Assembly: GCF_028885415.1 (NCBI RefSeq)
Contig: NZ_CP118527.1
Location: 2,852,001-2,916,000, forward strand
Reading direction: 5' to 3'
DNA from: Streptomyces coeruleorubidus
GTDB lineage: Bacteria; Actinomycetota; Actinomycetes; Streptomycetales; Streptomycetaceae
DNA: 64,000 nt
The notes under the pieces: generated by a model
Told to the model about the DNA's origin: nothing
The model's input: the letters and a program-made list of their open reading frames with translations, nothing else
Database searches by the model: none
Program-made: the position numbers and the translations under genes
Part shown: piece by piece, positions 14,419 through 45,048 of the stretch
Layout of the letters: each line of letters begins with the position of its first letter
How positions within the stretch are numbered: the first letter of the stretch is position 1

Positions 14419-14567
14419 CGGGGGTTTGCGCAGGTTGCCGCTACGGCGGTTTCCGCAGGCGGGTGGAACGAGCACCCCAAGCCCTTCGTCCGGATCAAGG
14501 ACGCCGACGAGATCCCTCGACAAAGTCGCCGCCAACTGCCGACGAATCTCTGACTCAGGTCACCAGG

Positions 14568-17432
14568 TCACTCCTCATCCCTGTCATCGAGGTCGAAGTC
14601 AAAGATCAACTGGCCCGACAGAGTCGGGTCCGACGCGGCCGGGGCCTGGGGCTCCGGGTCCAAGACGTCCTCTACTTCGTGTGGCAGAGCGTAATCGTCC
14701 GCAAGCCGCGCAAGATGCAAGATCAAGGGCAGAGCCAACCCCTCGCGACCAGCACGGTAGTCCTCGCTGAAACGCTGCTGGTGGACGAATGCGGCCCATG
14801 CCTCCGCATCGTCACCGGGCTGAAGGCACGCGACGGTCAGCTCGAGGAGGTCCGGGTTCCAGGCGTTCACCGTCGGCCGGTAAGCGTTGTTGCCCGAGGC
14901 GTTGGTGTGCGGAGTCAGTTTGGCGTCGTCGTTGGTGAGCTTCGACTGCGTGCCGGACTTGCCGATCGTGCTGTAGAAGACGCGGTCGGAGTCACCCCGC
15001 ACCCCGGACCGCCACAGCCCCATCGCGATGCCCCCGCGCTGCTTACCCTCCAGCTCGGGCGAGAGTTCCTCACGCTCGGCCCAGCACTGCGCTGTCTCGT
15101 CCCGGCTGCCGTCGGCGATCCGGACGACACGAAGCTGCTTGCCGTACAGACCAATCCGCTGAACGGGACCTCCGTCGAGGCCGAGCCTGTCCCGTTCCAG
15201 ACCGTCGTTCCTCAGCCACGGCCAGCGCTTCCTGACGTCCTGAGCGTGGGCCAGAACGAGCGTCGGGGTGCTGCGCAGCTGCGCGAGTGTCTTCTTGATG
15301 AAGGCCGCCGTGAGGGCCGACTGCTCCGCACTGTTCTTCCTGCCTTCGACCCGGCCCGTCAACGACTTGAGGAGTTCGGGGTACGGCACCCATTCGTGCA
15401 TGTCGGCCGACTTACCCAGCACGCACTTCGCGCCCGGCCGGATGAGCACCGCGATCGGCGTGAACTGCTGCTTGCCCGTGGGACCGTCAAGGCGGCGTTC
15501 CACGAGGTGGAAGGCCACCTGGTTCAGGTTCGCGGGGATGAGCGTGTCACCGAGCGTGTGCTGAGGCACCAGCCGCATACCGGTCTGGCGCAGGCCGTCC
15601 GACCAGGCTGCGGCTGCACGCAGCCCTGCATCGGCGAGAGCCTCGTCCGTCTCCACATCCGGGTCCGGTGGACGGATGAACTGGGTCACCAGGCCTGCGT
15701 CCGCGCAGCCGAGGCGGATCGCATGCTTGGGGTCGCTCCGTCGCTTGGCATGGCGGAAGGCGTCCTGCCCGTCGAGCTCCACGAAGGCCAGCCGCACCCC
15801 GGGGACGGCTTCCCGCAGTGCGGCCATGGAGCGCGCGACACCGGTACGGCGCTCCTCGATGGCCTTGTCGTGTTCCTGCCCCCGGCGCGGCACGCTGTCG
15901 CCTCCCAGCGGTGCACCGAGACTCCCCAGGGGCCGAGCGTGCAGCCGGACGGTCAGCTCCTCGGCCTCCCACACCCAGGTATCGGGGCCGTGCACACGCC
16001 GGAGCCCGGCCAGCCCCAGCCCCGTCTCCGCCGCGGCGATCATCTGATCGCGGATGGCGTCGTTCTGGTGGAGCACGACCGCGGTGAGGTCTTTGCCTTC
16101 AAGTGCTTCGGCCAGGCGTGCCCGCAGAACCTGAGCGTTGTGGGCCGCGTTCAGCTCACGCTCATCCAGGATGACCGCGAGGTCTTCGGGATTCTTCTTT
16201 TCCATGTTCTTGGGAATGGACGGCAGCTTCTTGAGCTGTTTCTTGGGTGGCCGCGCGTATGCACTGCGCTCGAGCTTCGAAACGGGCACGAACTCGGGAG
16301 CGATCGCCTGCTCCGCCCACTCGATCAGCCGTCGGCGTTCACTGGGCATCAGTCCGGTGCCGATCGTGTGCCTGCCCATGGCCGCCTGGTGCCCGATCGC
16401 GATCCGGATTCCGTCCCGGCCGTGGATCCAGTGGTCGGCCTCCTTCACCAGCCGGTCCGGGGACGGCAGTGCGTCGAGTGCGCTGATCCGGGCGAGCATC
16501 CCTTCTGCTCCGCCCTGACGCCAGTCCGTGGTGCCGTTCTTCCACTCCAGCATGGCGACCGCGAAGCGCTGCGGCTGCGGGCCGTCGTGGACGAGGGAGT
16601 CGTCCGGGAGCAGGTAGGCGGACACACCCTTGCCGTACGGCATGTAGACCTTGCCGGTGACGAACCGGCGCACGCCGGCGGCCACGTGGACGCGCGGGAC
16701 GGGTGAGAAAGGAACGGTGCGCACGGTGATGCGGAGGGTCGCCGCGTAGTAGGCCGGCTTGCCGTCGCCGCCACCGCGCCGCCTGGGTACGTACTCGATC
16801 AGGTTCGACATCAGCTCGGCACCCCCGCTTCCCTGACCCCGGGCACCCGTGCGGCCGGCCACCTGCCGGAACGTCAGCTGCTGCCCGTGGTGTTCGTACG
16901 GTCCCTGGCGCGCGATCCGTTCGCCGAGGACGTCGGGAAGCAACCGGTACACGTGGGGCGCGGGCAGAGCGGTTCCTCCGGGCGACACCTTCTGCTCGAG
17001 GAGGTCGACGCTGCCGGGCCGCCAGCTGAGGGCCGCGGTGTCGAGGTCACGGAAGCAGTTCATCAGCAGGGCCGTGGTCTCGGGATCGTCGGCATCGCGC
17101 GGGAGGCTCTTGAGCCACGCGGCGATGTAGAGGTTCGTCACCGCCATCGGGTACGCCTCCTGGCAGTACAGCCATGGGTTCTCCGAGCCGAAGCGTGCCG
17201 TGGAGTCGACCGTGACGATGTCCGGCGCGGTGGCGCGCATCAGCTGGTTGACCGCCGCTGTGGGTACGCGGCGCCGTCGCTCGGCCTGCCCCTCGGTCAT
17301 TCCGCCGTGGTAGAGGCGCAGGAGTGGTTCCTCCCAGTGGGCGGGCAGGGAGAGCGTGTGCATCGGGACGACGAAGGGGCCCTGTGCCGGGTCGGTCAGG
17401 TACGCCGCCGGACGGTTGTACTGGTAGGCCAT
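14568..17432 (-). CDS. pPIWI-RE family protein (prokaryotic Argonaute relative)
   Basis: 954 residues; ATG with GAGGAGA 9 nt upstream. Size, gene order and sequence character match the bacterial pPIWI-RE family described by Burroughs, Iyer and Aravind (2013). That family has an N-terminal X-type domain, a MID-like middle and a C-terminal RNase H-fold PIWI domain. The C-terminal half contains a VELDG strand (about residues 550-555), usual for the first acidic position of an RNase H fold, and an NAWNPDLLEL segment near 856-866. The conserved R and E that name the family cannot be assigned without an alignment. The protein is predicted to bind a guide strand and recognise a target. It follows the helicase gene after 97 bp and is the last gene of the leftward arm. 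Confidence 0.82.
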   Translation of the reverse strand: MAYQYNRPAAYLTDPAQGPFVVPMHTLSLPAHWEEPLLRLYHGGMTEGQAERRRRVPTAAVNQLMRATAPDIVTVDSTARFGSENPWLYCQEAYPMAVTNLYIAAWLKSLPRDADDPETTALLMNCFRDLDTAALSWRPGSVDLLEQKVSPGGTALPAPHVYRLLPDVLGERIARQGPYEHHGQQLTFRQVAGRTGARGQGSGGAELMSNLIEYVPRRRGGGDGKPAYYAATLRITVRTVPFSPVPRVHVAAGVRRFVTGKVYMPYGKGVSAYLLPDDSLVHDGPQPQRFAVAMLEWKNGTTDWRQGGAEGMLARISALDALPSPDRLVKEADHWIHGRDGIRIAIGHQAAMGRHTIGTGLMPSERRRLIEWAEQAIAPEFVPVSKLERSAYARPPKKQLKKLPSIPKNMEKKNPEDLAVILDERELNAAHNAQVLRARLAEALEGKDLTAVVLHQNDAIRDQMIAAAETGLGLAGLRRVHGPDTWVWEAEELTVRLHARPLGSLGAPLGGDSVPRRGQEHDKAIEERRTGVARSMAALREAVPGVRLAFVELDGQDAFRHAKRRSDPKHAIRLGCADAGLVTQFIRPPDPDVETDEALADAGLRAAAAWSDGLRQTGMRLVPQHTLGDTLIPANLNQVAFHLVERRLDGPTGKQQFTPIAVLIRPGAKCVLGKSADMHEWVPYPELLKSLTGRVEGRKNSAEQSALTAAFIKKTLAQLRSTPTLVLAHAQDVRKRWPWLRNDGLERDRLGLDGGPVQRIGLYGKQLRVVRIADGSRDETAQCWAEREELSPELEGKQRGGIAMGLWRSGVRGDSDRVFYSTIGKSGTQSKLTNDDAKLTPHTNASGNNAYRPTVNAWNPDLLELTVACLQPGDDAEAWAAFVHQQRFSEDYRAGREGLALPLILHLARLADDYALPHEVEDVLDPEPQAPAASDPTLSGQLIFDFDLDDRDEE

Positions 17433-17529
17433 GGTGCCGTTCTCCTCGGGGCAAGCGTGCAGTGTTCGGACGCGACGCGGACACGTCGTGGATGCGGTGC
17501 GGTGTCGTGGGGCGGGGTGACGGATGCCG

Positions 17530-20500
17530 TCAGCCCATGTCCACCAGGGCGCGGTAGAGCGGTTCGTACAGCTCACGGACAAGGGACTTGTCGATCGGGG
17601 CGGGGGCCCGCTGCGCCGTGTTCCCGTCCTCGAAGTAGGGGGCGAGCACCTCACGCATGCTCGCGAGCAGACTGGTGTCGGGGGTGTCCGCGTCCTGGAA
17701 CCCGGCTTCTCGCGGGGAGAAGGCCGCGTCGACGAAGACCACCCGGGCCGGCACGCCACCGCGCACCAGACGACCGATGACCTGCCACATGACGACGAGC
17801 TGGTCCCAGGTGAACGCCGCCTTCTCCTCGTCCCGCAGGCTGGACCAGGCCAGACGCCGGGTGAGGAAGCGGTTCCACTGACGGCGTGCGCGGCTGCGGA
17901 ACGCCACGGCCGCCTGGTCGGGGGTGGCAGCGGCGAGCGCGTTGTGCCGGAAGGCCCCGTCGATATCTCGGAGTTGGCGTACGGCCCAGTCGTTGATGGA
18001 CTGAATGGCGAGTGAGATGTCGTCGGGCCGAGGGTGGGGGCGTGCCAGGAAGTAGACCGTGCCGATGGCGGCCTTGCCACCGCGCAAGACGATGTTGTGT
18101 CCTCGCTCCACGGCGAGCAGCGGCGCGACGAGGATGTCGCCGCCGACCGAGGGGAAGGCTTTCACGTCACCGCGGGGCAGGGTCCGTGCGGTGGCATCCT
18201 CCGGCAGCCGGGTCCAGGCGGTGTCGGAGTCCGCGTCGTCGGACACGAGTCGGGTGACGCGGCCGTTCCACTCGGGGATCTGGTTGAGGTACTCGGCGGC
18301 CCGGCGTGCCTCGTCGTAGCTGCCGACGAGCAACAGGACGCGGCGGCGGTCCGGATCGTCGATCTCCTTCAGCTCGGCGTCCAGCATGCTCACGGCGTCA
18401 GGCAGGCTCCGGTCGGGCACCGCGAGCTGGTGCAGCATGTGCAGAAGGGCCTGCGGTCGTTCCTCGAGGTCGCAGCCGGACAGGCGCAGCGGCTTGGGCC
18501 GGTCGTTTCCGGGCCAGTACAGGAACTCCTTGCGGAACTCGCTGCCCAGGACGGCTTCGACTTCCTCGTCGTGAGGACGCAGAACGGCACCGACCTCGGC
18601 GTGCACGTGGTACCTGCTCGACGTGCCCGCCCAGCTCGTCGCGGACATGAGCAGGACGTGCGGGCCCGGACGGCCGTCCACGGCGCACAGGTCGCCGAGC
18701 CGCATGAGCAGTTCGCGGCCCACGCCGTTGCAGTGGAAGAAGCGCAGTTCACCGCTGCGGTCACCATCGCGCTCACGGTCGTCGTGGCGGAACTGGAAGC
18801 CGAGCACGTTACCCATGGGCGACTCGGGGATGACCGCCTCGTAGTCCTTGGGGGGCCTGCGGGAGAGCACGTTCGAGGCACTCTCGAGATTGAGGGCGGC
18901 CTCGACGCGCGGCCACAGCGTGGTCATGAAGTCGAGACGGCTGTGCAGGGCGGAAAGGAGCAGGGTGAACTCGAAGCGCCGGGCCTGGAGTTCGGCGTCC
19001 GCGAGCACTGTGCTGTCGTCTCCGACGATGCCGGTGAGCGTGTCGCGCAGCCTCTCACGCGTCCGTGCTCCCTGGGGCGCGTGCAGGAGCTCCAGGGTGA
19101 GGTGGACGAAGGTGTTCACCAAGGGTGTCACTTCGTCGTCGTCATCCAAGCTCTGCTGTTCGTGCAGCGGGTCGTCGCGGAACCGGCCGAGCGCACCGTC
19201 CAGCGTCCGGGCCGCCGCAGGCGGGCGTTCGCCCTCCTTCCGCCCCGGGAACCAGCTGTCCAGCAGCAGGTTGTGGAGGGTGAAGGCGCTGAAGTAGTCG
19301 ACGCTGATCCACTGCCTGAGCTTGTCGTCCTTGACGAGCAGGGCGAAGAGGCGGTCGGTGGCGGCGCTGACCGTGTTGACGGCGTTGGTCCAGTCGTCGA
19401 CGTCACGGGCGGACAGCTGGAGCCGGCCGTCCCGGGCCATCTGCTGGAACTTGTGGACGGCGACCTCGTCGAACCAGGAGTTCGGGGCCTTGCCCACCAG
19501 CGTGCCGGCCGGCGCGAAGGCCGTGTCGAGCTGCATCTGCACCCGGTCCGCCTCGTCGACGATGATCAGGTCGCTGACTCGGCACGCGAGTTCGAGGTAC
19601 CGGAGCTGTTCCTGGTGCTGGTGCAGCGGGACGGAACTGTGCACCAGACCGGCCGGGGTGGCGACCCACACCTGTGCGTCGACCAGATCACGAGCCCCGC
19701 GGTGGCGCGGACAGCGGTTCCATAACGGGCACAGTCTCCGCTGCGGCTTCGGGCCTTGTGCGTCACGCTGCGTGCTGTTCTCCTCGTCGAGGAGTGGATC
19801 GCCGTCCGTGGCCTCCTGCTCGGGGACGGTGTACAGCGTGATGCACGGTGCTTCACGGACGCCGAGCGGGCGGCGGGCTTCCAGGCCGCGCAGCACGTCG
19901 ACGGGGCAGGCACTGCTGAGGTAGGCGAAGCCCGCGTGGTCGTGCCCGAGCATGGTGGCGGCGCCGGCCGTGGCGGTGCGGCGGTGCAGCCGGTTGATGT
20001 TGCGTTCCCGGGTGGAGTGCCCGAGGATCGGTGCCGCCCGCACACCGAGCCGGTTGAACTGCTCCACCACGGCGAGCGTCTCGGCCACGTCCCCGACGAC
20101 GATGGTGACCCGGCGGGGTGTCCGGGTGACGAGGTGGTAGGTCAGGATGTCCCGGAGTGTGGACTTGCCGGCTCCCACCATGCCCACGAGGTGCAGCAGC
20201 CGGTCGATCCTCAGCCGTCCCTGTTCGGTGAAGCGGCCGAGTTCCGCGTCGCGCACGAGCAGTTTCACCCGCCGGAGCCGCCCGGCCCAGCCGTTGCTCG
20301 GCCCATCCGGCACCGTCGCCTCGACGGCGTCCATCTCGTCGGCGGCCTTTTCGAGCTCTTCCCAGGTGACGTCGACGGGCTCGCCGCACCCGGCCGGTGG
20401 TGCGTCGAGCGCGTGGGCGCGCGGCAGGGTGTCCGTCAGCAGTTCCTCGTCGAACACCACGGAGTGGGTACGGTCCTGCACCCGAAAGGTGTGTTCCCCC

Positions 20501-20967
20501 TCCTCGGCGAACGGAATGGATCGTGTCGCGAACCGCGGAGCGGTGCTGAGCAGTTCTTCGAAGATCTCGAACCGGCGTGCGGCGCGCGACGGCTCGCGAC
20601 GGCGCGGCACGGATCCGGGCCGGTCGATGTCGTATCCCCGCAGGTGCTGGGGGACTTTCAGGTAGTCGGCCAGCGCCTCCGACCAGGCGTGCCGTCGCCG
20701 CATGTCCCACAGGTAGTGGCGGGCGCGCAGAACGCGCAGCCGCTGTTCGTCGGTGCGGACGTCTCCGAACACCTCGCTGTACGGGTAACCGCCCAGCAGC
20801 GGCCAGACATCGGCGGCCGTGCGGGTGGGCGTCACGTCCTGCAGGAGGTACAGGCCCAGTTCGACGTCGAGAAGGTCGCCGGGGCGGAAGCTGCCGAGGT
20901 TCGCCGGCCACACCTCGGTGAGCTGCTGCGGCGAACAGCGCCGGTGCCATCCTCTGCGGTCACGCAC
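17530..20967 (-). CDS. DinG/XPD-type helicase of the pPIWI-RE locus
   Basis: 1145 residues. The GTG at 20967 is chosen for its strong GAAGGAGG site 5 nt upstream; it overlaps the nuclease stop by 8 bp. An N-terminal domain of about 230 residues (probably the Z-type domain of this system) precedes Walker A (GMVGAGKST, 262-270) and a DEAD box (471-474). Four cysteines between them (C354, C375, C413, C419) are placed like the Fe-S cluster ligands of XPD/DinG helicases. A later SATS motif marks motif III. DinG helicases unwind forked DNA and R-loops, which underlies the published proposal that pPIWI-RE systems act on transcribed invading DNA. The C-terminal part carries QVIGRLVRGG, a motif VI-like arginine segment. 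Confidence 0.88.
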   Translation of the reverse strand: MRDRRGWHRRCSPQQLTEVWPANLGSFRPGDLLDVELGLYLLQDVTPTRTAADVWPLLGGYPYSEVFGDVRTDEQRLRVLRARHYLWDMRRRHAWSEALADYLKVPQHLRGYDIDRPGSVPRRREPSRAARRFEIFEELLSTAPRFATRSIPFAEEGEHTFRVQDRTHSVVFDEELLTDTLPRAHALDAPPAGCGEPVDVTWEELEKAADEMDAVEATVPDGPSNGWAGRLRRVKLLVRDAELGRFTEQGRLRIDRLLHLVGMVGAGKSTLRDILTYHLVTRTPRRVTIVVGDVAETLAVVEQFNRLGVRAAPILGHSTRERNINRLHRRTATAGAATMLGHDHAGFAYLSSACPVDVLRGLEARRPLGVREAPCITLYTVPEQEATDGDPLLDEENSTQRDAQGPKPQRRLCPLWNRCPRHRGARDLVDAQVWVATPAGLVHSSVPLHQHQEQLRYLELACRVSDLIIVDEADRVQMQLDTAFAPAGTLVGKAPNSWFDEVAVHKFQQMARDGRLQLSARDVDDWTNAVNTVSAATDRLFALLVKDDKLRQWISVDYFSAFTLHNLLLDSWFPGRKEGERPPAAARTLDGALGRFRDDPLHEQQSLDDDDEVTPLVNTFVHLTLELLHAPQGARTRERLRDTLTGIVGDDSTVLADAELQARRFEFTLLLSALHSRLDFMTTLWPRVEAALNLESASNVLSRRPPKDYEAVIPESPMGNVLGFQFRHDDRERDGDRSGELRFFHCNGVGRELLMRLGDLCAVDGRPGPHVLLMSATSWAGTSSRYHVHAEVGAVLRPHDEEVEAVLGSEFRKEFLYWPGNDRPKPLRLSGCDLEERPQALLHMLHQLAVPDRSLPDAVSMLDAELKEIDDPDRRRVLLLVGSYDEARRAAEYLNQIPEWNGRVTRLVSDDADSDTAWTRLPEDATARTLPRGDVKAFPSVGGDILVAPLLAVERGHNIVLRGGKAAIGTVYFLARPHPRPDDISLAIQSINDWAVRQLRDIDGAFRHNALAAATPDQAAVAFRSRARRQWNRFLTRRLAWSSLRDEEKAAFTWDQLVVMWQVIGRLVRGGVPARVVFVDAAFSPREAGFQDADTPDTSLLASMREVLAPYFEDGNTAQRAPAPIDKSLVRELYEPLYRALVDMG

Positions 20968-22135
20968 GGCGTCCTCCTTCGGTACGCGGGGCCCCGGTCT
21001 TGTCGCGCGGGGTGGAGATCTCATCGGCGACCAGCCGCAGGAAGGCCTGGTCGTCCAGAAGGGTGACCCGGTCGGCCAGGTCCTCCGGGAGGTTGCGGCG
21101 GAACTGCCGCCCGTACGCCTCGTTGTCGCGGAAGCGGTAGCGGGGCACGACGAGGAACGCCCGGTCGTACGGCGGCTCGTTCCTGAACGGCGTGAGGGAA
21201 CGCGCCAGGAGTACGGGGTTCACCCGATCCTTGACGTCCACCGCCCAGTGCCGTCGCCCCGGCAGGGGGACGCGCAGGTCGTACGCGTCGTAGTTGGGCC
21301 ACATCTCGGCGGTGATTGCGAACTTCGTCTCCAGGGCGGCTTGCAGATCGGTCTCCGCGAGCCCGGGGCTGGTGATGAACATCCGCAGGGGGCGGCTGAG
21401 CTGGAAGACCCCGCCTTTGTCGGCACTGAGCGGCCTGCCTTCGTCCGAGGTGCCGTCGCGGCGGCACCGGTCCAGTTCGCACCGGTGGCCGCCGTGCAGC
21501 AGCGGCACCATCAGGCAGTGGCAGCGGGCACACTGCCGGTACGTGCCGCCCCGCAGGTAGGACGCGGGCACGGGCTCGTAACACCGCTTGATCACGCTGT
21601 GCAGCAGCATCCCGCATTCCGGATCGCCGCCGAGCAGCGCCAGCTCGGCAGCGGTCAGCACGGGCCTGGAAGTCAGCAGGGCCCGGAACGCGGTGTACGC
21701 CTGCGGGGCCTTGGCCGCACGGCACACGGCGAGTGCTTCCCGGATGCGCTCGTTCTCGAAGAGCTCGGCGGCCGGGTCGGCCGCGCTCACCTCCCACTCC
21801 AGGCACAGCTGGTGCGGCAGCCGGGTCTCCGGATCGACGAGCAGGGCCGTACCCGGAAAGTTCTCGGGCGATAGCTCCAACGGCCACGCCATCAGCGGCC
21901 GTTCACAAGCCCATCGGATCATCTGCGGCACACTGCCCGGCGGTTCCTCGCCCCGGCGCAGGCAGTGCAGGACGAGTCGGTTGTACGCGTTCTGCACCTT
22001 GGCCGGGTAGGCCGGGTTCGGTACGGTCCTCTGCCGGGACAGGCACGCCAGGGCGCTGGCGATCTGGCGAAGCAGCCCCTCGTCCGTGCCGACGGCGCCC
22101 TCGGGCCGTGCGTCCCTCATGCCGGTCGTGGTCAC
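20960..22135 (-). CDS. restriction endonuclease-fold protein of the pPIWI-RE locus
   Basis: 391 residues from a GTG overlapping the upstream nuclease stop (GTGA). An N-terminal helical domain (about 1-190) is followed by a zinc-ribbon-like set of Cys (C202, C205, C219, C224). A C-terminal PD-(D/E)XK core follows, with D286 and the DVKD strand (D300-V-K302). This is the third member of the pPIWI-RE triad (Y-type domain plus REase). It is predicted to cut DNA at sites located by the PIWI protein. An alternative ATG lies five codons downstream. Confidence 0.85.
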   Translation of the reverse strand: MTTTGMRDARPEGAVGTDEGLLRQIASALACLSRQRTVPNPAYPAKVQNAYNRLVLHCLRRGEEPPGSVPQMIRWACERPLMAWPLELSPENFPGTALLVDPETRLPHQLCLEWEVSAADPAAELFENERIREALAVCRAAKAPQAYTAFRALLTSRPVLTAAELALLGGDPECGMLLHSVIKRCYEPVPASYLRGGTYRQCARCHCLMVPLLHGGHRCELDRCRRDGTSDEGRPLSADKGGVFQLSRPLRMFITSPGLAETDLQAALETKFAITAEMWPNYDAYDLRVPLPGRRHWAVDVKDRVNPVLLARSLTPFRNEPPYDRAFLVVPRYRFRDNEAYGRQFRRNLPEDLADRVTLLDDQAFLRLVADEISTPRDKTGAPRTEGGRRA

Positions 22136-23772
22136 GCCTCCCCCTTTCCCGCGACGGCGCCGTCAGGCGCGGCGTTCGGACACCACCGGGACACCGGACA
22201 GGACCGGCAATGCGGTCCGGGGCGGGCGTCCCATGTCTCGTCCTCCCGCCACGGACCGACGTATCGCCGCAGTACCGACAGCGCCTTCCCCTGCCGGCCG
22301 GGGTCCGTCGGGTCGATCACGTGCGCATCGGAACCATCCGGCCGGAGGATCTCCACCTCGACGCGCGACCCGTCCGGATCGCCGCCCAGCGCCCCCACCG
22401 CCAGGAGCGTGACGGCCAGGGCGAGTTGGGGGTAGGTGTCGAGAGGGTCCTCGTGGTGGCGGCGCCGCTTCCGTGTCGTCTTGAGCTCCCGCCACACCCA
22501 CGAGCCGTCCTCCTGATAGAGCAGGTCGGGTTTGGCGATGACGACGGCCTGCGCCGCGGTGTCGTGGACGACTCGGAGCGCTTCGGGCTCGACCCGCTGG
22601 ATGAGGGCGGCGTCCTGGAAGGGGCAGGCGTCGACGTGGTGGAGCAGCATGTCCCGACCGGTCGCGGCGTCCTCGTCGGAGACCCGCCAGCGTCCCTCTG
22701 TCCAGTTCTCGCCCTCCGGGGGCATGTCGCCGGCTGTGCACGGCGGCCAGCCCGGGCGCCGGTGCAGCTCCTCGATCCAGCCGTGCACCGCCTGGCCGAG
22801 CCTGGCCGCGCTGCCGTACTCGTCGGACTTGGGCAGGTGCAGGGCACGGAGGAATCCCTGTGCGGGGCAGGCCGCGTGATAGCGCAGATCGCTGACCGAC
22901 ACCTTCCTCAGCGGTGCCACCCGCGAGGAGAGTCCAAGGACGCCGGGCCTGCGCGGCACGGCCTCGCAGCCCGTGAACTGCTTGCAGTCGACGCAGGACG
23001 AGCCGGGTACCGGCCTTCCGCCCGACACGACACGGGCCACGTGCGCGTGCCCGTGCTCGGCGTAGTACGCCTCGGCCTCCTCGGCCGTCCCGTCGAACTG
23101 CACGCGCGGCCGTCCGTCGGCGAGCCCGACTTCGACGACACGCACCCGCTCGGGCCGGGCGACGGGTCCGGACGGCTGGAACGCGCGCGCCCACTTCCGG
23201 GGCCAGGCCGCCTGGCGCCCGTGAACGGCCACGTACGCGGCGATGGCGATCTCGCCGGGCTCGCAGTCCTTGGCCTCGCCGTGCCGCAGCCGCCGGTACT
23301 CACGCAGTCGTCCGCATGCCGACTCGTACCTGCGCCACCAGGCGTACATCTCCCAGAACTTGCCGTTCTCCCGCTGGGCCACCCAGTACGGACGGACCGG
23401 CTGGAGCCGCTGCTCACCGTCGTCGGCGCACGCTCCCACGTACGTACGGAGGGCGTGCTCGGCATACGTCAGGTGACCGGGATGGAGGGCGGGGGTGCGG
23501 GAGCGCAGCCCCGCCAGGGCCTGGTCGGGTGTCTCACCGTGGAACTCGACCCGGTCGACGGCGTCCATGACCGGCCCGAGGGTGAACGTCTCGAGCTCCG
23601 GCTTCGGCAGCCGGAAACGCCGGGCCGGCAAGAGACCGGGCCGGGCCTTGGCGGCGGCGTGCGAGGGGCAGGTGTGCTCGTCACTCCCGCCCGTACCGGG
23701 CCCCACGCGAACGAGGCCGTCGTTCCCGGTCAGCCAGTGCGGGTTGTGCCATGCCGTCGTGTCGTGACTCAT
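22132..23772 (-). CDS. RecB/AddB-like PD-(D/E)XK nuclease with Fe-S cluster motif, first gene of the pPIWI-RE arm
   Basis: 546 residues; ATG with GGGAGG just upstream. The C-terminal half is a RecB-family nuclease: H330 in GQAVHGWIEE, D416 in AKPDLL, E429-L-K431 as the ExK motif, and a Gln-containing helix after it. C302 together with C522, C525 and C531 gives the Cys-x(n)-CxxC-x5-C arrangement that binds an iron-sulphur cluster in AddB and Cas4. A second Cys group lies upstream (C260, C263, C269). It is coupled to the pPIWI-RE nuclease by GTGA and so belongs to the same transcript. It is not one of the three published core genes of the pPIWI-RE operon. Confidence 0.8.
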   Translation of the reverse strand: MSHDTTAWHNPHWLTGNDGLVRVGPGTGGSDEHTCPSHAAAKARPGLLPARRFRLPKPELETFTLGPVMDAVDRVEFHGETPDQALAGLRSRTPALHPGHLTYAEHALRTYVGACADDGEQRLQPVRPYWVAQRENGKFWEMYAWWRRYESACGRLREYRRLRHGEAKDCEPGEIAIAAYVAVHGRQAAWPRKWARAFQPSGPVARPERVRVVEVGLADGRPRVQFDGTAEEAEAYYAEHGHAHVARVVSGGRPVPGSSCVDCKQFTGCEAVPRRPGVLGLSSRVAPLRKVSVSDLRYHAACPAQGFLRALHLPKSDEYGSAARLGQAVHGWIEELHRRPGWPPCTAGDMPPEGENWTEGRWRVSDEDAATGRDMLLHHVDACPFQDAALIQRVEPEALRVVHDTAAQAVVIAKPDLLYQEDGSWVWRELKTTRKRRRHHEDPLDTYPQLALAVTLLAVGALGGDPDGSRVEVEILRPDGSDAHVIDPTDPGRQGKALSVLRRYVGPWREDETWDARPGPHCRSCPVSRWCPNAAPDGAVAGKGEA

Positions 23773-23852
23773 TGCCTCCCCCTTGTCTCGGAACAGACGG
23801 CACCCTTCGGACCGGGCCGGGTGCGCCGCCGCATTCGACCGTAGCAGGAATC

Positions 23853-23892
23853 TTGGAACTCATTGGAAATTCTTGGCACAGGTTGGCTCCTG
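23853..23892. promoter_or_regulatory. four 10-bp iterated TTGG blocks between the divergent defence arms
   Basis: TTGG occurs at 23853, 23863, 23873 and 23883, exactly one block per 10 bp, with the first two blocks reading TTGGAA. The third TTGG is also the start of the -35 hexamer of the rightward gene. A 23-bp core here (23854-23876) matches 36041-36063 upstream of the RloC-like gene at 21 positions. Same-face spacing on the helix suggests head-to-tail binding of a regulator. The winged-helix protein encoded next to it is a natural candidate. Confidence 0.6.
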
Positions 23893-23901
23893 CGCTAAGC
23901 T
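23873..23901 (+). promoter_or_regulatory. rightward promoter giving a leaderless transcript
   Basis: TTGGCA (23873-23878), then 17 bp, then TAAGCT (23896-23901). This fits the Streptomyces vegetative pattern TTGAC-N17-TAnnnT. The expected transcription start, 7-8 nt after the -10 box, falls on or next to the ATG at 23909, so the message would be leaderless. No Shine-Dalgarno sequence precedes that ATG. Confidence 0.6.
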
Positions 23902-23908
23902 GCCCCAC

Positions 23909-24784
23909 ATGGCGGCATCACTGGAGGAGCTCGAGCAGCGCCTGTCCCACCTGCGCACCGAGCTGCGCGGTGCCGTGCGCGCACGGGACAAGGCCGAAAC
24001 CACGCGCATCCGTCGTGCGCTACGCGAGGCCGAGGCCGCGTGGGAGCACGCTCTCGAGTCCGAGGCGGGACCGGACGGCGAGGCACTCCTGACCGACCCC
24101 CCGGCCCCGCAAGCGTCGGCGACCACAGGCGCACCACGCCAGAAGGAGCGCCCGACGCACGGCTCCATCCCGATCCGCGAACAGGTCCACCAGGCGCTCA
24201 CCCTGCTGGGTGCCCCCGCCTCCCCCAAGCTCATCTCGTCCACGTACGAGGCGTTCTTCACCGAGCCGCTGGTCGCCACCAAACTCGCGTCGCTCCGCCG
24301 CGACGAGGAGCGCTCCTTCACGGCGCAGGGCTACGCCCGCCCGTACTACATCTGCGCGGCGCTGACCCACGACCGCCTCGTCCCCGCACGTGGACTCCTT
24401 GCCCTGTCCACCTGGCCCGTGGAACGGCGGATCATCGGCCCGCTCAGCCCGCGCGCCGACTTCCTCACCCACGCGGTGGGGACCGCCGAGCAGATCCAGC
24501 GGCTCACCACCGCGGGGCATCCGGCCCCGGACGCGGCCTGGCGGCTGCTGCGCCGTTTCGCCCTCACGATCCCCGGTGCCCACGACGCCGCGGCCCCGGA
24601 ACCCGATCCCGCCCGCGTGATCGCGGCTGCCCGCGCCGAAGCGGCCGTCCACCAGCAGGAGGACGACCAGCAGCGGCAAGCGGCAGCGCAGCGCGCCCGT
24701 GCCCAACTCGCCGACACACAGCAGCTGTTCGGTGCGGCACCGATGCGTGACGCCCTGCGTGACGCGAGTGGGACCCTGTCCTGA
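23909..24784 (+). CDS. coiled-coil plus winged-helix-like protein, first gene of the rightward arm
   Basis: 291 residues. Residues about 4-50 form a charged coiled coil. After a disordered stretch, residues about 88-136 read as a winged helix-turn-helix: helix REQVHQALTLLG, helix SPKLISSTYEAFF, helix VATKLASLRRDEERSF. A following globular part and a Gln/Ala-rich C-terminal helix complete it. I do not recognise the family by name. The ATG at 23909 is chosen because a promoter places the RNA start there; an upstream in-frame start would lie inside the promoter. Its position beside the 10-bp repeats suggests it regulates both arms. A structural role in the complex is equally open. Confidence 0.7.
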   Translation: MAASLEELEQRLSHLRTELRGAVRARDKAETTRIRRALREAEAAWEHALESEAGPDGEALLTDPPAPQASATTGAPRQKERPTHGSIPIREQVHQALTLLGAPASPKLISSTYEAFFTEPLVATKLASLRRDEERSFTAQGYARPYYICAALTHDRLVPARGLLALSTWPVERRIIGPLSPRADFLTHAVGTAEQIQRLTTAGHPAPDAAWRLLRRFALTIPGAHDAAAPEPDPARVIAAARAEAAVHQQEDDQQRQAAAQRARAQLADTQQLFGAAPMRDALRDASGTLS

Positions 24785-24873
24785 CGCCCCCTTCCCGCCA
24801 GCGATGACGTCAGACGCCTCGCACGCCGGTGAGCTCCCGAAGACGTACTGAAGACGTTCCCGAAGTAGAGACG

Positions 24874-25992
24874 ATGCCCTCGCAGCAGTCCGAACCTCCC
24901 GACGACCGACTCGCGCGGCTGCGCGGACCGCAGCCCCCTCAGCCGTACACCGCCCGCAAGATCACCGCCCTGACCGCCAATCCCGCCTGCGCCCGCCGCG
25001 CCGTCCTCGACGCCGCCGGGGTGGACAAGGCGTTACTCGCCCAACAGGTCGGGTACGAGCCGCGCTTCGGCCAGTCGCCCTTCGCCCTCGCCCGCGAACA
25101 GGCGTTCCACGGCCTGGTGAAGTGGGGCGGCTACGCCGAGCTCATCCGGCTGCTGCGCGAGCAGCTCTCCGTCCCCGTGGCAGAGGCCCATGTCACCGAC
25201 CTCAACGAGGTGGGGGGTAACACGGCCCTGCCCGTGCGCGAGCGGGAGACCCGCCGCCTCATCGCGCACGTGGCCTCCGGCCAGGACGTGCGGCTCATCC
25301 TCGACCGCCCCGTGCTCGCCCTCGAAGTCGCCGGTCAGACGGCGTACTTGGAACCGGACGCGCTCACCCACCGCATCGAGGGGAAGTTCCACGTCGTCCT
25401 GATCCGCTCGTTCGCGGCGATCGACGGCCAGGCCAACCCGACCGCCGTCGCCGAGGCGGCCAAGCAGGCAGCGGTGTACGTCCTCGCCCTGCGCCGCGCC
25501 TTCGACACCGCCGGCCTGCCCATCGAGCAGATCTCCCACAAGTTCCTGCTCGTCTGTCCCAAGGACTTCTCCAACCGCCCCTACGGCCGCCTGATCGACC
25601 TCCGGCAGGAACTCGACGCCCTCCAGTTCCAGCTCTCCCGGCTGCGGCGCGCCGAGGACCTCGCGGCCGGGCTCCCCGAGACGGCGACCCTGGACACGAC
25701 CCGAAGCACGGACGAACTCTCCTCCTCCATAGAGGCGTTGGACGCGTCTTACACACCCTCCTGCTTGTCCTTCTGCGAAATGGCGCGTTACTGCCGCGAC
25801 GAGGCCGACGGATGCGCCTCACCGGCCCGCCTGGGCAACGGCGTACGCAACGACCTGCCGGGCATCGACTCCACCCGCACCGCGCTCGACTACCTGGACG
25901 GCGTCGCCGCCCCGGGAGAGGCCGAGGTGGAAGCCGCCGACCTGCTGCGCGCCGCCGCCCGGCTGCGCCGACTCCGCCGGGGGGCCGCATGA
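24874..25992 (+). CDS. RecB/Cas4-fold protein with Fe-S Cys set but degenerate nuclease motif
   Basis: 372 residues. C39 near the N-terminus and C297-x3-C301-x5-C307 near the C-terminus form a Cas4/AddB-like Fe-S ligand set. H79 in EQAFHGLV and D162 in LEPDAL match RecB-family nuclease motifs. The expected ExK strand instead reads HVVLIRSF, so the Glu and Lys are missing. A QAAVYVLAL helix matches the last RecB motif. It is probably an inactive or altered nuclease with a structural or DNA-binding role, paired with the active-looking enzyme on the other arm. Codon 54 is TTA, which in Streptomyces needs the bldA tRNA. The ATG is chosen over a GTG at 24829, which has no ribosome-binding site. 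Confidence 0.7.
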   Translation: MPSQQSEPPDDRLARLRGPQPPQPYTARKITALTANPACARRAVLDAAGVDKALLAQQVGYEPRFGQSPFALAREQAFHGLVKWGGYAELIRLLREQLSVPVAEAHVTDLNEVGGNTALPVRERETRRLIAHVASGQDVRLILDRPVLALEVAGQTAYLEPDALTHRIEGKFHVVLIRSFAAIDGQANPTAVAEAAKQAAVYVLALRRAFDTAGLPIEQISHKFLLVCPKDFSNRPYGRLIDLRQELDALQFQLSRLRRAEDLAAGLPETATLDTTRSTDELSSSIEALDASYTPSCLSFCEMARYCRDEADGCASPARLGNGVRNDLPGIDSTRTALDYLDGVAAPGEAEVEAADLLRAAARLRRLRRGAA

Positions 25993-27506
25993 GCGTCCTG
26001 TCCACCGTCGCGGCGCTCACGGCGTCCCGTACCGGCCGTGCCGAACCACTGACGACCGTCCGCCACCAGCACCTGGACGAGAAGCCGTTCGTCCTGGTAC
26101 CGCTCACCCTCGCCGGCGAAACATGCGCGCCCCTGGCCGCGCTCGCGGGTACGGACCCCGAGCACCCGACCCTCCTCACCGTCCGCCAGCCGCGCAACCG
26201 CGCCGAACGCTTCCGGTTCGCCGAGCGCCTCGCCGCACTCCTCCTCGCGTACATAGAGGGGTGCCGGACGGAGACGGAGCCCTACACCGCCGGCCGCGGC
26301 AAGGAGAAGGAGGAACGCCTGCGCTTCCAGCGGGCCCCGCAGCTCCTCCTGCCGAACGGCGAGGGCATCGCCTACGTTCGCCTGCTCGGCCGACTGACCA
26401 GACTGCGCGCCACCGAGGGGCCGTACGCGGTCGACCCGTCCGTGCCCGCCCTCGGCAAGTGGCTGACCTGGTTCGCGGAGCTGGCCGAGTTCCCGAACTC
26501 CGGTGTGCTGCTCGCGATGACCCGGCTGCTCGCCGCGCACTGGGCCACGGGCCAGAGCCCTTCCGAGGACTCCCACCTCGCGTCCCTGCTCGCCTGGATC
26601 GATCCACCGGAGGGCAGCGACGGCGCGCGGGTGGCACGGGAGGCGGAGGACCCCGCCGTGTGGCCGCCGGCCGGTCCGTCCACGGACCCGGTCTTCGACC
26701 GGACCCTCCACGAACTGATGACGCGCTACGACGAGGCGTCCGACGACCGCGGACGCGAGGCGGTCGGCCGCCAGATCGACCGTGAGCTGAGCGGCCAGAT
26801 GCTGCCCACCTGGCGGCTGATGTGGCGCGGCGTGGAGCTGCTCCGCGATCTGCCGGAGGGGGCCCACGTCCCCGGCCGCTGGGCCCTCGACCGGCGCTGG
26901 TTCTCCGAGTACGCCGAGTACCTGGACGCCGACGGCCGCCCGCAGGCCCGTCGCGACCAGGCCGTCAGAGCCGCCCGCCGCCTGGCCCGGCTGGAGGACG
27001 CGGTCGCCCGCTACGAGGCGGAGCGCGCGTACGACGACCCGCTGGTGATGGCGGAGTACGAGCTGACCGGCGAGGCGTTCACGGGCACGGTGACTGCCAG
27101 GGACGAGGACCGCTTCGTCCCCGGCGACCGTCCCGGCTCCCAGGTGTGGCGCCCGACGATCACACTCCGCACCAGCACCGACACCCGCGTCGGTCTCGCG
27201 GTCGGCACGGAGGTGAAGTCCCCCGCCCGGCCCGGCCAAGGAGCCCGGATCCTCGACATACGGCAGGAGGACGACGGCAGCCACGTCGTGGTGCTCCAGC
27301 TCAAAGGCGGCTTCGCACGGAAGCAGAAGCCGCCCGCACCGGCCGGCACCCTCGCGGAGACCGGCGAGGAACTGACGTACACCACGCTCAACCCCACGGC
27401 CATGCCGTCCGCCCTGCCCGACGAGGAGAACACCCCCTGGACCCACGGCGGTCCGCCCCAGCCGTACGAACCCACCGACGAGGACGCAGAGGAGACCTGG
27501 GAGTGA
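25989..27506 (+). CDS. unknown protein of the pPIWI-RE rightward arm
   Basis: 505 residues; ATG overlaps the previous stop (ATGA). No family is recognised. The protein is mostly alpha-helical by composition. Its middle (about 250-370) is rich in charged helices, and a C-terminal part of about 80 residues has beta-rich character (VWRPTITLRTST, then an RILDIRQEDDGSHVVVLQLKGG strand pair), which could be an OB- or SH3-like barrel. The last 60 residues are acidic and Pro-rich. It is coupled at both ends, so it is very likely a stoichiometric partner of the SF1 helicase that follows. Confidence 0.65.
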   Translation: MSVLSTVAALTASRTGRAEPLTTVRHQHLDEKPFVLVPLTLAGETCAPLAALAGTDPEHPTLLTVRQPRNRAERFRFAERLAALLLAYIEGCRTETEPYTAGRGKEKEERLRFQRAPQLLLPNGEGIAYVRLLGRLTRLRATEGPYAVDPSVPALGKWLTWFAELAEFPNSGVLLAMTRLLAAHWATGQSPSEDSHLASLLAWIDPPEGSDGARVAREAEDPAVWPPAGPSTDPVFDRTLHELMTRYDEASDDRGREAVGRQIDRELSGQMLPTWRLMWRGVELLRDLPEGAHVPGRWALDRRWFSEYAEYLDADGRPQARRDQAVRAARRLARLEDAVARYEAERAYDDPLVMAEYELTGEAFTGTVTARDEDRFVPGDRPGSQVWRPTITLRTSTDTRVGLAVGTEVKSPARPGQGARILDIRQEDDGSHVVVLQLKGGFARKQKPPAPAGTLAETGEELTYTTLNPTAMPSALPDEENTPWTHGGPPQPYEPTDEDAEETWE

Positions 27507-28864
27507 CCGCCCTCCTTCCCGACACCGGGGAGCCCGAAGCCCTCACCCCCGGCGAAAGCGCGGACCGCGCGGTCGCGGGGATCCTGACCAGCCTCGACAC
27601 CGCGCCCGGCCGGGGCGTGGTCGTGGACTCGCCTCCCGGAGCCGGCAAATCCACGCTGGTAGTGCGGGCCACCGGGCACCTGACCTCCGCGGGCCACCAG
27701 CTCATGATCGTCGCGCAGACCAACGAGCAGGTCGACGACCTCGTGGACCGCATCGCGCGTGAACACCCCGGGCTGGCGCTCGGCCGCCTCCACGCCCGCG
27801 GCCACACCCTCCCGCCCCGCGTCACCCGGCACCCCAGCGTCACCGGGAGCAGCGAGGTGACGAACCTGCGCGACCTGCCCGTCGTGGTGTCCACCGCGAA
27901 GAAGTGGTCGTTCGTCACCCCGGACAAGTGCGCGCCGTGGCGGTGGGCCATCGTCGACGAGGCGTACCAGATGCGCTCGGACGGGCTCCTGGCGACGGCC
28001 CCGCTGTTCGCCCAAGACGACTCGCAAGTCCTCTTCGTCGGCGACCCCGGCCAGCTCGACCCCTTCGCCACCGTGGAGACCGACCGCTGGCACGGCCTGA
28101 CCTGGGACCCCCTGCGCAACGCGGTCGACGTCACCCTCGCCCACAACCCCGACCTCTTACGCCACCAGCTCCCCGTCTCCTGGCGCCTCCCGGAGACGGC
28201 AGCGCCCCTGGTCGAACGAGCCTTCTACCCCTTCTACCGGTTCGTCCCCGGCACGACGGCACCGGAGCGCGTGCTGTCCTACGCCAGCCTGTCCCACGGC
28301 ACCGGCCCGCTGGACGACGTCCTCGCCCGGGCCGCCGACTCCGGCTGGGGCCACCTGGAACTCCCCGCCCGCCACACGCTCGACCAGGACCCGGAGGTGG
28401 CGGATGCCCTCGCGGCGACGGCGGCCCGGCTTCTGGAGCGCGGTGCGCTGGTCAACGGCGATCCCCTGACGGCGGACCGCATCGCGATCGGCACGGCACG
28501 CACTGTGCAGGCGGACGCGGTCCGCACCCGCCTCGCCTCCCGCGGCCTGACCGGCATCACGGTGGACACCGCCAACCGCCTCCAGGGCCGCGAGTTCGAC
28601 GTCACCCTCGTCTGGCACCCGCTGTCCGGCCGCCAGGACGCCTCCGACTTCCACCTGGAGACGGGCCGCCTGTGCGTCCTGCTCTCCCGGCACCGCTTCG
28701 CCTGCATCGTGGTGGCCCGCGCCGGCATCCGCGACCTGCTGGACCGGCATCCGCGGAGCAGCCCTGTGTATCTGGACGTGCCGCCTAAGTTTCCGGATGG
28801 GTGGCGGGCGCATCAGGTGGTTATGGGGTGGCTGGAGCGGGGGGAGCACAGAACACGTGGCTGA
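27503..28864 (+). CDS. superfamily 1 (Upf1/Dna2-like) helicase
   Basis: 453 residues from a GTG overlapping the previous stop (GTGA). It has Walker A (SPPGAGKST, 43-51), a DEAY-type motif II in AIVDEAYQM, motif III FVGDPGQLDP, and a motif V-like TANRLQGREFD. A short final segment includes LLSRHRFACIVV as motif VI. The motif set is that of UvrD/Upf1-class helicases acting on single-stranded nucleic acid. Codon 219 is TTA. It closes the rightward arm. Together with the DinG-type enzyme this gives the locus two helicases of different superfamilies. Confidence 0.85.
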   Translation: MTALLPDTGEPEALTPGESADRAVAGILTSLDTAPGRGVVVDSPPGAGKSTLVVRATGHLTSAGHQLMIVAQTNEQVDDLVDRIAREHPGLALGRLHARGHTLPPRVTRHPSVTGSSEVTNLRDLPVVVSTAKKWSFVTPDKCAPWRWAIVDEAYQMRSDGLLATAPLFAQDDSQVLFVGDPGQLDPFATVETDRWHGLTWDPLRNAVDVTLAHNPDLLRHQLPVSWRLPETAAPLVERAFYPFYRFVPGTTAPERVLSYASLSHGTGPLDDVLARAADSGWGHLELPARHTLDQDPEVADALAATAARLLERGALVNGDPLTADRIAIGTARTVQADAVRTRLASRGLTGITVDTANRLQGREFDVTLVWHPLSGRQDASDFHLETGRLCVLLSRHRFACIVVARAGIRDLLDRHPRSSPVYLDVPPKFPDGWRAHQVVMGWLERGEHRTRG

Positions 28865-33016: not shown

Positions 33017-33466
33017 TCACAGCGTCCGGGGCGCCAAGGCCCCGATCACCCGCTCGACGTCGTCCCGCCACGCACACAGTTCCGCCTGCGTGGGAGCCAG
33101 CTCGTACCCGTGGTAGTGGCAGGCCCGGCTGAGGCCGGCCCAGGTCGCCGACCAGCGGCGGGCCGTGTCGCAGTCGGCGTAGGCCTCCAGGCACAGGGCC
33201 TGGGCGTGCGGCGGGCAGCGGGCCAGCTGCGGCTTGCGGGCCTGCCAGTAGCGGCGCAGGGCCTCTTCGAGGGCGTGGCGCAGCAGCAGTGCCACGGCGC
33301 GCGGCCAGACGCCTGTGGTGGAGGCGGTGGCCGTCCCGAGCAACCGGTCCGCGCCCGCGAGCAGTTCCTCGGGGGTCGAGGTGGACGGCGGCGGAGGCGG
33401 GAGGGGTGCGGGGAGCCGGGGCGGGCGCGCGGGCGGGACGGGTGTGGCCGGGTGGATCGTGGTCAC
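33017..33466 (-). CDS. small HEPN-like protein paired with an SMC-like ATPase
   Basis: 149 residues from a GTG overlapping the ATPase stop (GTGA). A Pro-rich N-terminus (about 1-32) is followed by four likely helices, including AVALLLRHALEEALRRYW. The segment SRACHYHGYE contains R114-x4-H119, matching the Rx4-6H motif of HEPN ribonucleases. HEPN proteins are common effectors in defence and toxin systems. The fold call rests on the helical pattern and this motif and needs structural support. Confidence 0.55.
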   Translation of the reverse strand: MTTIHPATPVPPARPPRLPAPLPPPPPSTSTPEELLAGADRLLGTATASTTGVWPRAVALLLRHALEEALRRYWQARKPQLARCPPHAQALCLEAYADCDTARRWSATWAGLSRACHYHGYELAPTQAELCAWRDDVERVIGALAPRTL

Positions 33467-36039: not shown

Positions 36040-36079
36040 ATGGAACTCATTGGAATTTCATGGAGACCTTTGGTATCGG
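36040..36079. promoter_or_regulatory. four 10-bp iterated (A/T)TGG blocks upstream of the RloC-like gene
   Basis: ATGG at 36040, TTGG at 36050, ATGG at 36060 and TTGG at 36070, one per 10 bp. Bases 36041-36063 match the pPIWI-RE intergenic repeat (23854-23876) at 21 of 23 positions. The element lies between the DUF262 gene stop and the ATPase start, about 154 bp upstream of that ATG. On the minus strand a TATGGT box follows about 13 bp downstream of the element. It is probably an operator shared with the pPIWI-RE locus. Confidence 0.6.
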
Positions 36080-45042: not shown

Positions 45043-45048
45043 GGCAGG

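Follow-up and report, generated by a model that had tools for sequence, protein, structure and literature searches.

Does an Argonaute relative of the pPIWI-RE family work as part of a larger machine when further genes are encoded beside it? The question is raised by a locus of Streptomyces coeruleorubidus in which a pPIWI-RE gene is one of eight genes arranged in two divergent arms. The locus lies in the 64,000-nucleotide stretch of contig NZ_CP118527.1 analyzed here (the window, to which all coordinates refer). The initial annotation proposed that the eight products form a single DNA-processing machine. We find that the block is a composite, in which the four-gene operon catalogued as Ppr and a portable four-gene helicase module are joined divergently, with a single TTGG array between them. 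Within one Streptomyces clade all eight genes are inherited as a unit, and each arm is also found complete with other partners.

The eight-gene divergent layout is well founded, as the open reading frames (ORFs), their orientations and an independent, codon-usage based gene caller agree. The left arm, on the minus strand, encodes in transcript order a Cas4/AddB-like iron-sulfur (Fe-S) PDDEXK nuclease (22132-23772), a restriction endonuclease (REase)-fold protein with a Y domain (20960-22135), a DinG-type helicase with a pPIWI_RE_Z domain (17530-21024, the gene caller preferring a start at 20913) and the pPIWI-RE protein (14568-17432, gene-caller start). The first two genes overlap by 4 base pairs (bp; 22132-22135). 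Depending on which DinG start is used, the REase and DinG genes share 65 bp or are separated by 46 bp, and 97 bp lie between DinG and pPIWI-RE, provided that the gene-caller start of the latter holds. Beyond a 136-bp intergenic region (23773-23908), the right arm is encoded on the plus strand. Gene 1 (23909-24784) encodes a helical protein of 291 amino acids (aa) with an N-terminal coiled coil, a candidate regulator. Gene 2 (24829 or 24874 to 25992) encodes a 387-aa Fe-S PDDEXK-like protein with the Cas4/AddB/Dna2 pattern, recognized from alignments and motif counts, gene 3 (25989-27506) a 505-aa protein, and gene 4 (27503-28864) a 453-aa Dna2/SMUBP-2-like SF1 helicase. Genes 1 and 2 are separated by 44 or 89 bp, and both later junctions are 4-bp overlaps (25989-25992 and 27503-27506), as had been noted from the sequence.

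The evidence that the arms are inherited together comes from comparison of the window with 21 other eight-gene loci. Nucleotide homology extends through all eight genes and ends at 14565-14668 and 28825-28851 in 19 of the 21 loci (L071 and L167 share more flank); left flanks are only a few hundred bases long in many of the stretches compared. Pairwise protein distances of the two arms are strongly correlated (Mantel r 0.964, with 0 of 5000 permutations as high), and the arms co-diverge to 21-38% protein difference. This correlation shows co-inheritance, not interaction. The eight-gene loci keep the left arm and differ in the operon that lies beyond the right arm. Just one plasmid record matched the block, over 1% of its length, and a search of phage records with the 505-aa protein gave no match.

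The association is not fixed. Mapped on a rapidly built tree of genes 3 and 4, linkage to PIWI requires four changes, and three rows without PIWI (L185, L173 and L183) fall within or beside PIWI clades. In one of these, from S. acidicola (L173), the right arm and array are kept at 93% identity and DUF6119 replaces the left arm. Thus, the divergent side is exchangeable near the array, and the usual unit is eight genes.

The right arm has a distribution of its own. Of 7996 candidates scored against the 505-aa protein, 3697 are homologues, the closest named relatives being from Streptomyces, and a relative is encoded in at least 377 of 392 Streptomyces genomes, with most of the matches listed at 43-50% identity. 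At two core loci (L062 and L080) this relative is flanked by relatives of genes 2 and 4, and gene 1 is absent. A closer clade (at least 63% identity) is represented in 14 of the 392 genomes among the matches listed. The RNase H-like domain PF13032 is found about 10-12 kb away in 11 of these, and none was found in the other three (G366, G333 and G329). PF13032 itself occurs in 110 of the 392 genomes. When gene 1 was searched for in these 110 it was present in 18 and adjacent to PIWI-RE in 11; in five of the others it is farther away or on another contig, and in G094 (C18) and G109 (C1) it was observed 13-16 kb from a low-scoring PIWI-RE.

A wider scan for gene 1 used one genome per species (84,980 species) and an alignment (A1) composed mostly of Streptomyces rows, which favours PIWI-linked loci. 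It returned 332 stretches with 212 relatives, and the counts that follow are for the best 80 of the 212. The four-gene right arm is complete at 73 of these loci; it is adjacent to PIWI-RE at 16 and has another neighbour at 57 of the 73. The immediate divergent neighbour encodes PprPDDEXK at 16 of the 80 loci, an SMC/RecF-type ATPase (cluster c16) at 5, SbcD at 4, DUF6119 at 2 and a member of a small gene cluster at 13 (the one member scanned has an NYN domain). Many of the other neighbours are codirectional or single genes, and some are ordinary, such as an acyl-CoA dehydrogenase in Nocardia. The right-arm unit thus has, in many actinobacteria, a stable location with no defence partner.

Where partners are present they are diverse. 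Proteins of 679 and 217 aa and an Hsp70-NYN protein stand in place of the PIWI-RE arm in G333 (locus L185), and a DUF6119 gene stands where PIWI-RE would be in G366. Subtelomeric copies in G300 (L078) and G092 (L079) are divergent to SbcD-SbcC-type genes; identification of that neighbour as ttrA was ruled out. Wadjet genes adjoin the module at three loci, L078 (near a contig end), L277 (near the end of a linear plasmid) and L278. In G300 (L078) these are DUF3375 and SMC-like genes downstream of the module. The same module order, with JetD annotated, occurs on plasmid records of Streptomyces NBC_01244 (linear, near the end) and WAC00288 (recorded as circular; L278), the divergent side of the latter being annotated as several short ORFs. 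On the side 3' of the SF1 helicase, we also observed varying defence-type operons at L169, L176, L171 and L066, including type III restriction-modification (R-M)-like genes, an SNF2 helicase with a methylase, HmaAB and Hhe-like genes. The right arm is a portable module with varying divergent partners. An eight-part machine therefore fails as a general statement, because the right arm rarely adjoins PIWI-RE and occurs complete without it; what holds is that the eight genes travel and diverge together within one Streptomyces clade, with one array between the arms.

The left arm is confidently identified. Matches above the Pfam cut-offs to PF13111 (305 bits), PF18157 (101 bits) and PF13032 (231 bits) place the X, MID and RNase H-like domains of the family in the pPIWI-RE protein. 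PF18155 (152 bits) was identified in the DinG-type helicase, PF18156 and PF18154 in the REase-fold protein, and PF12705 (79 bits) in the PDDEXK nuclease. PADLOC-DB 2.0.0 holds one Ppr model for each gene of the arm, and all are matched (PprPDDEXK 344 bits, PprRE 263, PprDinG 850 and PprPIWI 564). The Cas4/AddB-like first gene that the initial annotation placed before the core triad is indeed present, but it is not new, because the PprPDDEXK model already exists and the four-gene arm is thus catalogued. The operon was described in 2013 as three genes (Burroughs, Iyer, Aravind; PMC3702460), so the fourth was added to a public library at a later date. Our literature search, in which one term matched unrelated words, found no paper that uses the Ppr names.

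Active-site residues of the two left-arm nucleases and motifs of the DinG-type helicase are intact. The PDDEXK nuclease keeps the D, E-K and Q residues and four cysteines in all 22 eight-gene copies, the REase keeps D and DxK in 21 of 21 called copies, and the Walker A motif and DEAD box of the DinG-type helicase are intact in 22 of 22. The pPIWI-RE protein is harder to read. Conserved R and E columns, such as R734 and E864 (each 56 of 57), were identified in a 57-protein alignment that is not anchored to published PIWI-sheet positions. The candidate beta1 strand carries a conserved E, not D, across these 57 proteins, which include no proven active reference. The catalytic aspartates (D525 and D610 in PsPIWI-RE) are present in only a subset of the family, and few PIWI-RE proteins are described as keeping catalytic residues (PMC10991935). 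We dropped the idea that the protein is catalytically dead, since the eight-gene copies carry an Asp just after candidate beta4; this residue is shared with L074 and absent from most other aligned proteins.

Left-arm neighbourhoods were examined in stretches of up to 20 kb around part of the PF13032 matches, together with PprPDDEXK loci from a class draw (23 of 296 genomes). This is a non-random sample, in which better matches and those adjoining right-arm relatives were chosen. Fifty-seven fetched loci encode a PIWI protein longer than 600 aa; 40 are four-gene loci with PDDEXK first and 17 are three-gene loci with low similarity. The survey of genes neighbouring pPIWI-RE that the initial annotation had called for thus gives a divided answer, the AddB/Cas4-like gene being a frequent companion (40 of 57 loci) and the right arm a rare one (gene 1 adjacent in 11 of 110 genomes). 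For 29 four-gene loci that lack a right arm, the gene 5' of PDDEXK was classified. In 23 it is a divergent member of cluster c0, of which the three members scanned are Ser/Thr kinases; in 2 (L074 and L162) it belongs to a cluster that includes N6-methyltransferases, in 3 it is another gene, and one stretch ends there. The kinase-cluster gene was seen divergent to the operon at L107-L109, L128-L141 and others, sometimes with an N6-methyltransferase-type gene nearby. At three-gene loci (L072, L073, L142, L150 and others) a different conserved gene (cluster c1) precedes REase in 16 cases, and two scanned members of this cluster had no Pfam match. In other actinobacteria (L111-L124), PprPDDEXK homologues were observed in fetched stretches that contain no REase, DinG or PIWI-RE gene.

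The proteins of the right arm are largely absent from profile libraries. Genes 1-3 had no Pfam match above cut-off and no PADLOC or NCBIfam match at E values up to 1, and the arm as a set has no counterpart models in PADLOC-DB or NCBIfam. Gene 4 matched PF13086, PF13604 and PF13245 above cut-off, had weak PADLOC matches and nothing above the NCBIfam cut-off. Profile matches to SMUBP-2 (5.2e-12) and DNA2 (6.6e-11) indicate that an SF1B helicase core is present, and all helicase motifs checked are intact in 22 of 22 PIWI-linked copies. The two helicases proposed for the locus are thus both borne out, and the DNA2-like profile, together with SbcCD, SMC and Wadjet neighbours, lends support to the end-processing flavour of the initial proposal.

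The gene 1 product was modeled at low confidence as all-helical, with a mean predicted local distance difference test (pLDDT) score of 72, and a fold search returned no match below an E value of 1.8. Its earlier winged-helix label was not confirmed, and a winged helix is no more than possible. We infer that gene 1 encodes a small DNA-binding regulator or adaptor. The gene 3 product, previously listed as an unknown 505-residue protein, now has a confident AlphaFold2 model (pLDDT 90). By structure comparison, residues 30-350 resemble the exonuclease region of family-B polymerases, and residues 357-468 form a barrel whose best match is the 1B barrel of Sen1/SETX. A sequence search of the PDB with this protein returned nothing at E values up to 1. 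For gene 2, the PDB sequence matches (two designed proteins and a viral envelopment protein) were not accepted as relatives, and profile homology to the left-arm PDDEXK nuclease was not significant.

Gene 2 fits its earlier description as a degenerate nuclease-fold protein: the catalytic E and K are replaced and four cysteines remain. In the 22 PIWI-linked copies the cysteines are kept in all and the D-E-K triad in none, the altered triads being D-L-R (15), Q-E-R (5), D-V-R (1) and H-E-R (1). Elsewhere the triad is intact in 8 of 8 SbcCD-linked copies, 4 of 5 c16-linked copies, 4 of 4 copies where gene 1 was not called (two core copies and two others) and 38 of 49 other copies, a class that includes the S. 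acidicola copy, of the PIWI clade by descent. The triad is changed in the sole G333-type copy. Because it is also altered in L185, L183, L186 and L188, its loss began in a wider Streptomyces clade. All eight genes have median pairwise dN/dS values of 0.14-0.21 (from 112-196 pairs per gene that fell within the pS range used), and the predicted dead nuclease has therefore been retained as a protein. These substitutions predict that gene 2 is catalytically dead. Of the up to three nuclease-fold proteins originally counted, then, the left-arm PDDEXK and REase sites are intact and the right-arm one has probably lost its activity.

An operator-like array, TTGG-N6-TTGG-N6-TTGG-N6-TTGG with an exact 10-bp period, is located on the plus strand at 23853-23886, 22 bp before the gene 1 ATG. 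It is the sole match in the one-contig, 9.41-Mb genome at up to one mismatch, controls gave zero matches, and 100 shuffled versions of the window contained none. Of 84 distinct copies of gene 1, 43 are preceded by at least three YTGG boxes spaced 9-11 bp apart, versus 1 of 1631 unlabelled genes at the same loci. By class, they are present in 22 of 22 PIWI-linked copies (which are mutually related and not independent), in the single G333-type copy, and in 4 of 7 SbcCD-linked, 3 of 5 c16-linked and 13 of 49 other copies. Fifteen left arms that lack a right arm showed no such array near PDDEXK, and neither of two core copies was preceded by one. No consensus promoters were found in the intergenic region; in our own reading, TTGGCA and TAAGCT, 17 bp apart, appear to overlap the array. 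Gene 1 and the array constitute a candidate regulator-operator pair.

A second array-like site, with two mismatches, occurs on the plus strand at 36040-36073, upstream of a gene for an SMC/RecF-type ATPase (33463-35847, minus strand). The ATPase is 71% identical to the divergent partner of the right arm in L186, another Streptomyces, and its 149-aa partner (33017-33466, minus strand) is 76% identical over 118 aa to the L186 counterpart. This site looks like a relic, or else like a second site on which the same regulator acts. It adjoins a GmrSD-type restriction endonuclease (PADLOC Orf5-like, 36108-37781). Farther along the window, at 43801-51547, is a Type VII secretion-like set encoding an EccD-like protein, a ParA-like protein, a 1326-aa FtsK/SpoIIIE-like protein and DUF6177.

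What might these arms do together? The explanation that we favour, at about an even chance, is that the right arm is a Dna2-like processor serving an interchangeable recogniser, here PIWI-RE and DinG, in a defence role. The right arm would be a DNA-processing complex spread over separate proteins (a Fe-S nuclease-like subunit, an exonuclease-like protein with a barrel, an SF1 motor and gene 1), called to its target by the recogniser. Elsewhere, SbcCD or an SMC-type ATPase would sense DNA ends or structures; here, PIWI-RE and DinG would sense RNA-DNA hybrids, as proposed in 2013 (PMC3702460). Because its nuclease site is lost, the right arm in its PIWI-RE form would only translocate or unwind, and cutting would be left to the intact left-arm PDDEXK and REase proteins, with or without PIWI-RE. 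The most likely role of the block would be defence against phage or plasmid DNA.

The strongest competing explanation is that the arms are independent defence systems, adjacent to each other and co-transferred only through linkage, neither needing the other. It finds support in left arms that are complete alone, with a divergent kinase-type gene or N6 methyltransferase, by the 57 of 73 right-arm units with other neighbours, and by the known defence-type operons (type III R-M-like, Hma, SNF2-methylase, Wadjet and Hhe) that follow the right arm in various genomes. Linkage alone sits less well with block edges that coincide with the eight-gene ends, with arms that co-diverge so far, with retention of the left arm at loci whose operon beyond the right arm differs, and with loss of the gene 2 triad in every eight-gene copy. 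We consider this account possible and somewhat doubtful. The model of the initial annotation, in which eight proteins form one integrated machine for resecting DNA ends or producing guides for an interfering Argonaute, appears improbable: most PIWI-RE-bearing Streptomyces genomes lack an adjacent right arm, the arm's own nuclease triad is lost and no sign points to guide making, even if two intact helicases and two intact nucleases do occur in one co-inherited block and SbcCD, an end-processing complex, partners the right arm elsewhere. Equally improbable is a role in replication or DNA repair and not in defence, in which PIWI-RE would help cells through replication stress and the right arm would be a repair helicase that arose by duplication. 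In its favour are the roughly 15-fold lower ciprofloxacin survival of a P. stutzeri PIWI-RE knockout relative to wild type (PMC10991935), the near-universal 505-aa relative in Streptomyces and the relatives of genes 2, 3 and 4 at the core loci; against it stand the patchy distribution, mostly unshared flanks and recurrent defence neighbours of the block.

Returning to the Dna2-like processor with an exchangeable recogniser, its boldest form is that the right arm is an undescribed four-gene actinobacterial plug-in, a split Dna2-like processor under TTGG-array regulation that swaps recognisers (SbcCD, SMC-type ATPases, DUF6119, Hsp70-NYN and PIWI-RE) and that, in the PIWI-RE pairing, has given up its nuclease and works as a motor for the Argonaute side. 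We advance this tentatively, at somewhat less than an even chance. No description of a Dna2-type helicase harnessed to an Argonaute relative was found in the open-licence papers searched. If correct, it would show that a single DNA-processing module can serve several defence loci, with the sensing operon before it exchanged. The role of pPIWI-RE would then become testable, as one helicase module could be compared with SbcCD, SMC-type and PIWI-RE partners, and the array offers a concrete candidate regulator-operator pair.

Set beside known systems, what is new is the right arm as a shared module, and the eight-gene form is a new variant; the four-gene left arm by itself is known. The left arm shares with the three-gene pPIWI-RE system (PMC3702460) the order of REase, DinG-type helicase and pPIWI-RE on one strand, overlapping or closely spaced, and differs in the extra first gene (PDDEXK) and the divergent four-gene helicase module. 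All four Ppr components of PADLOC-DB are found together here, whereas the right arm lacks such models. The module beside Wadjet genes (L078, L277 and L278) has the same four right-arm genes in the same order, with SbcD-SbcC-type genes divergent in L078 and L277; it differs in the absence of the PIWI-RE arm and, in L078, in its intact gene 2 triad.

The TM0106 family (TIGR03491) is a RecB-like nuclease-helicase in one polypeptide. Gene 4 resembles its helicase part (hhalign probability 98%), but here the parts are separate genes, and genes 2 and 3 had no significant profile match to it. A split TM0106 was therefore rejected as the exact ancestor and kept as an analogy only. TIGR03491 was above cut-off in 0 of 60 genomes of an order draw and 30 of 118 of a class draw. 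The likeness to eukaryotic DNA2, SMUBP-2 and Sen1/Senataxin involves more of the right arm: an SF1 motor (from profiles), a barrel (from structure) and a Fe-S PDDEXK-like subunit (from motifs). Unlike in the DNA2-type proteins, these parts are split over three genes, the last two junctions of which overlap by 4 bp, and the nuclease residues are lost. Eukaryotes pair Mre11-Rad50 with Dna2. If our reading is correct, the right arm and its SbcCD partners would be a bacterial parallel to this pairing.

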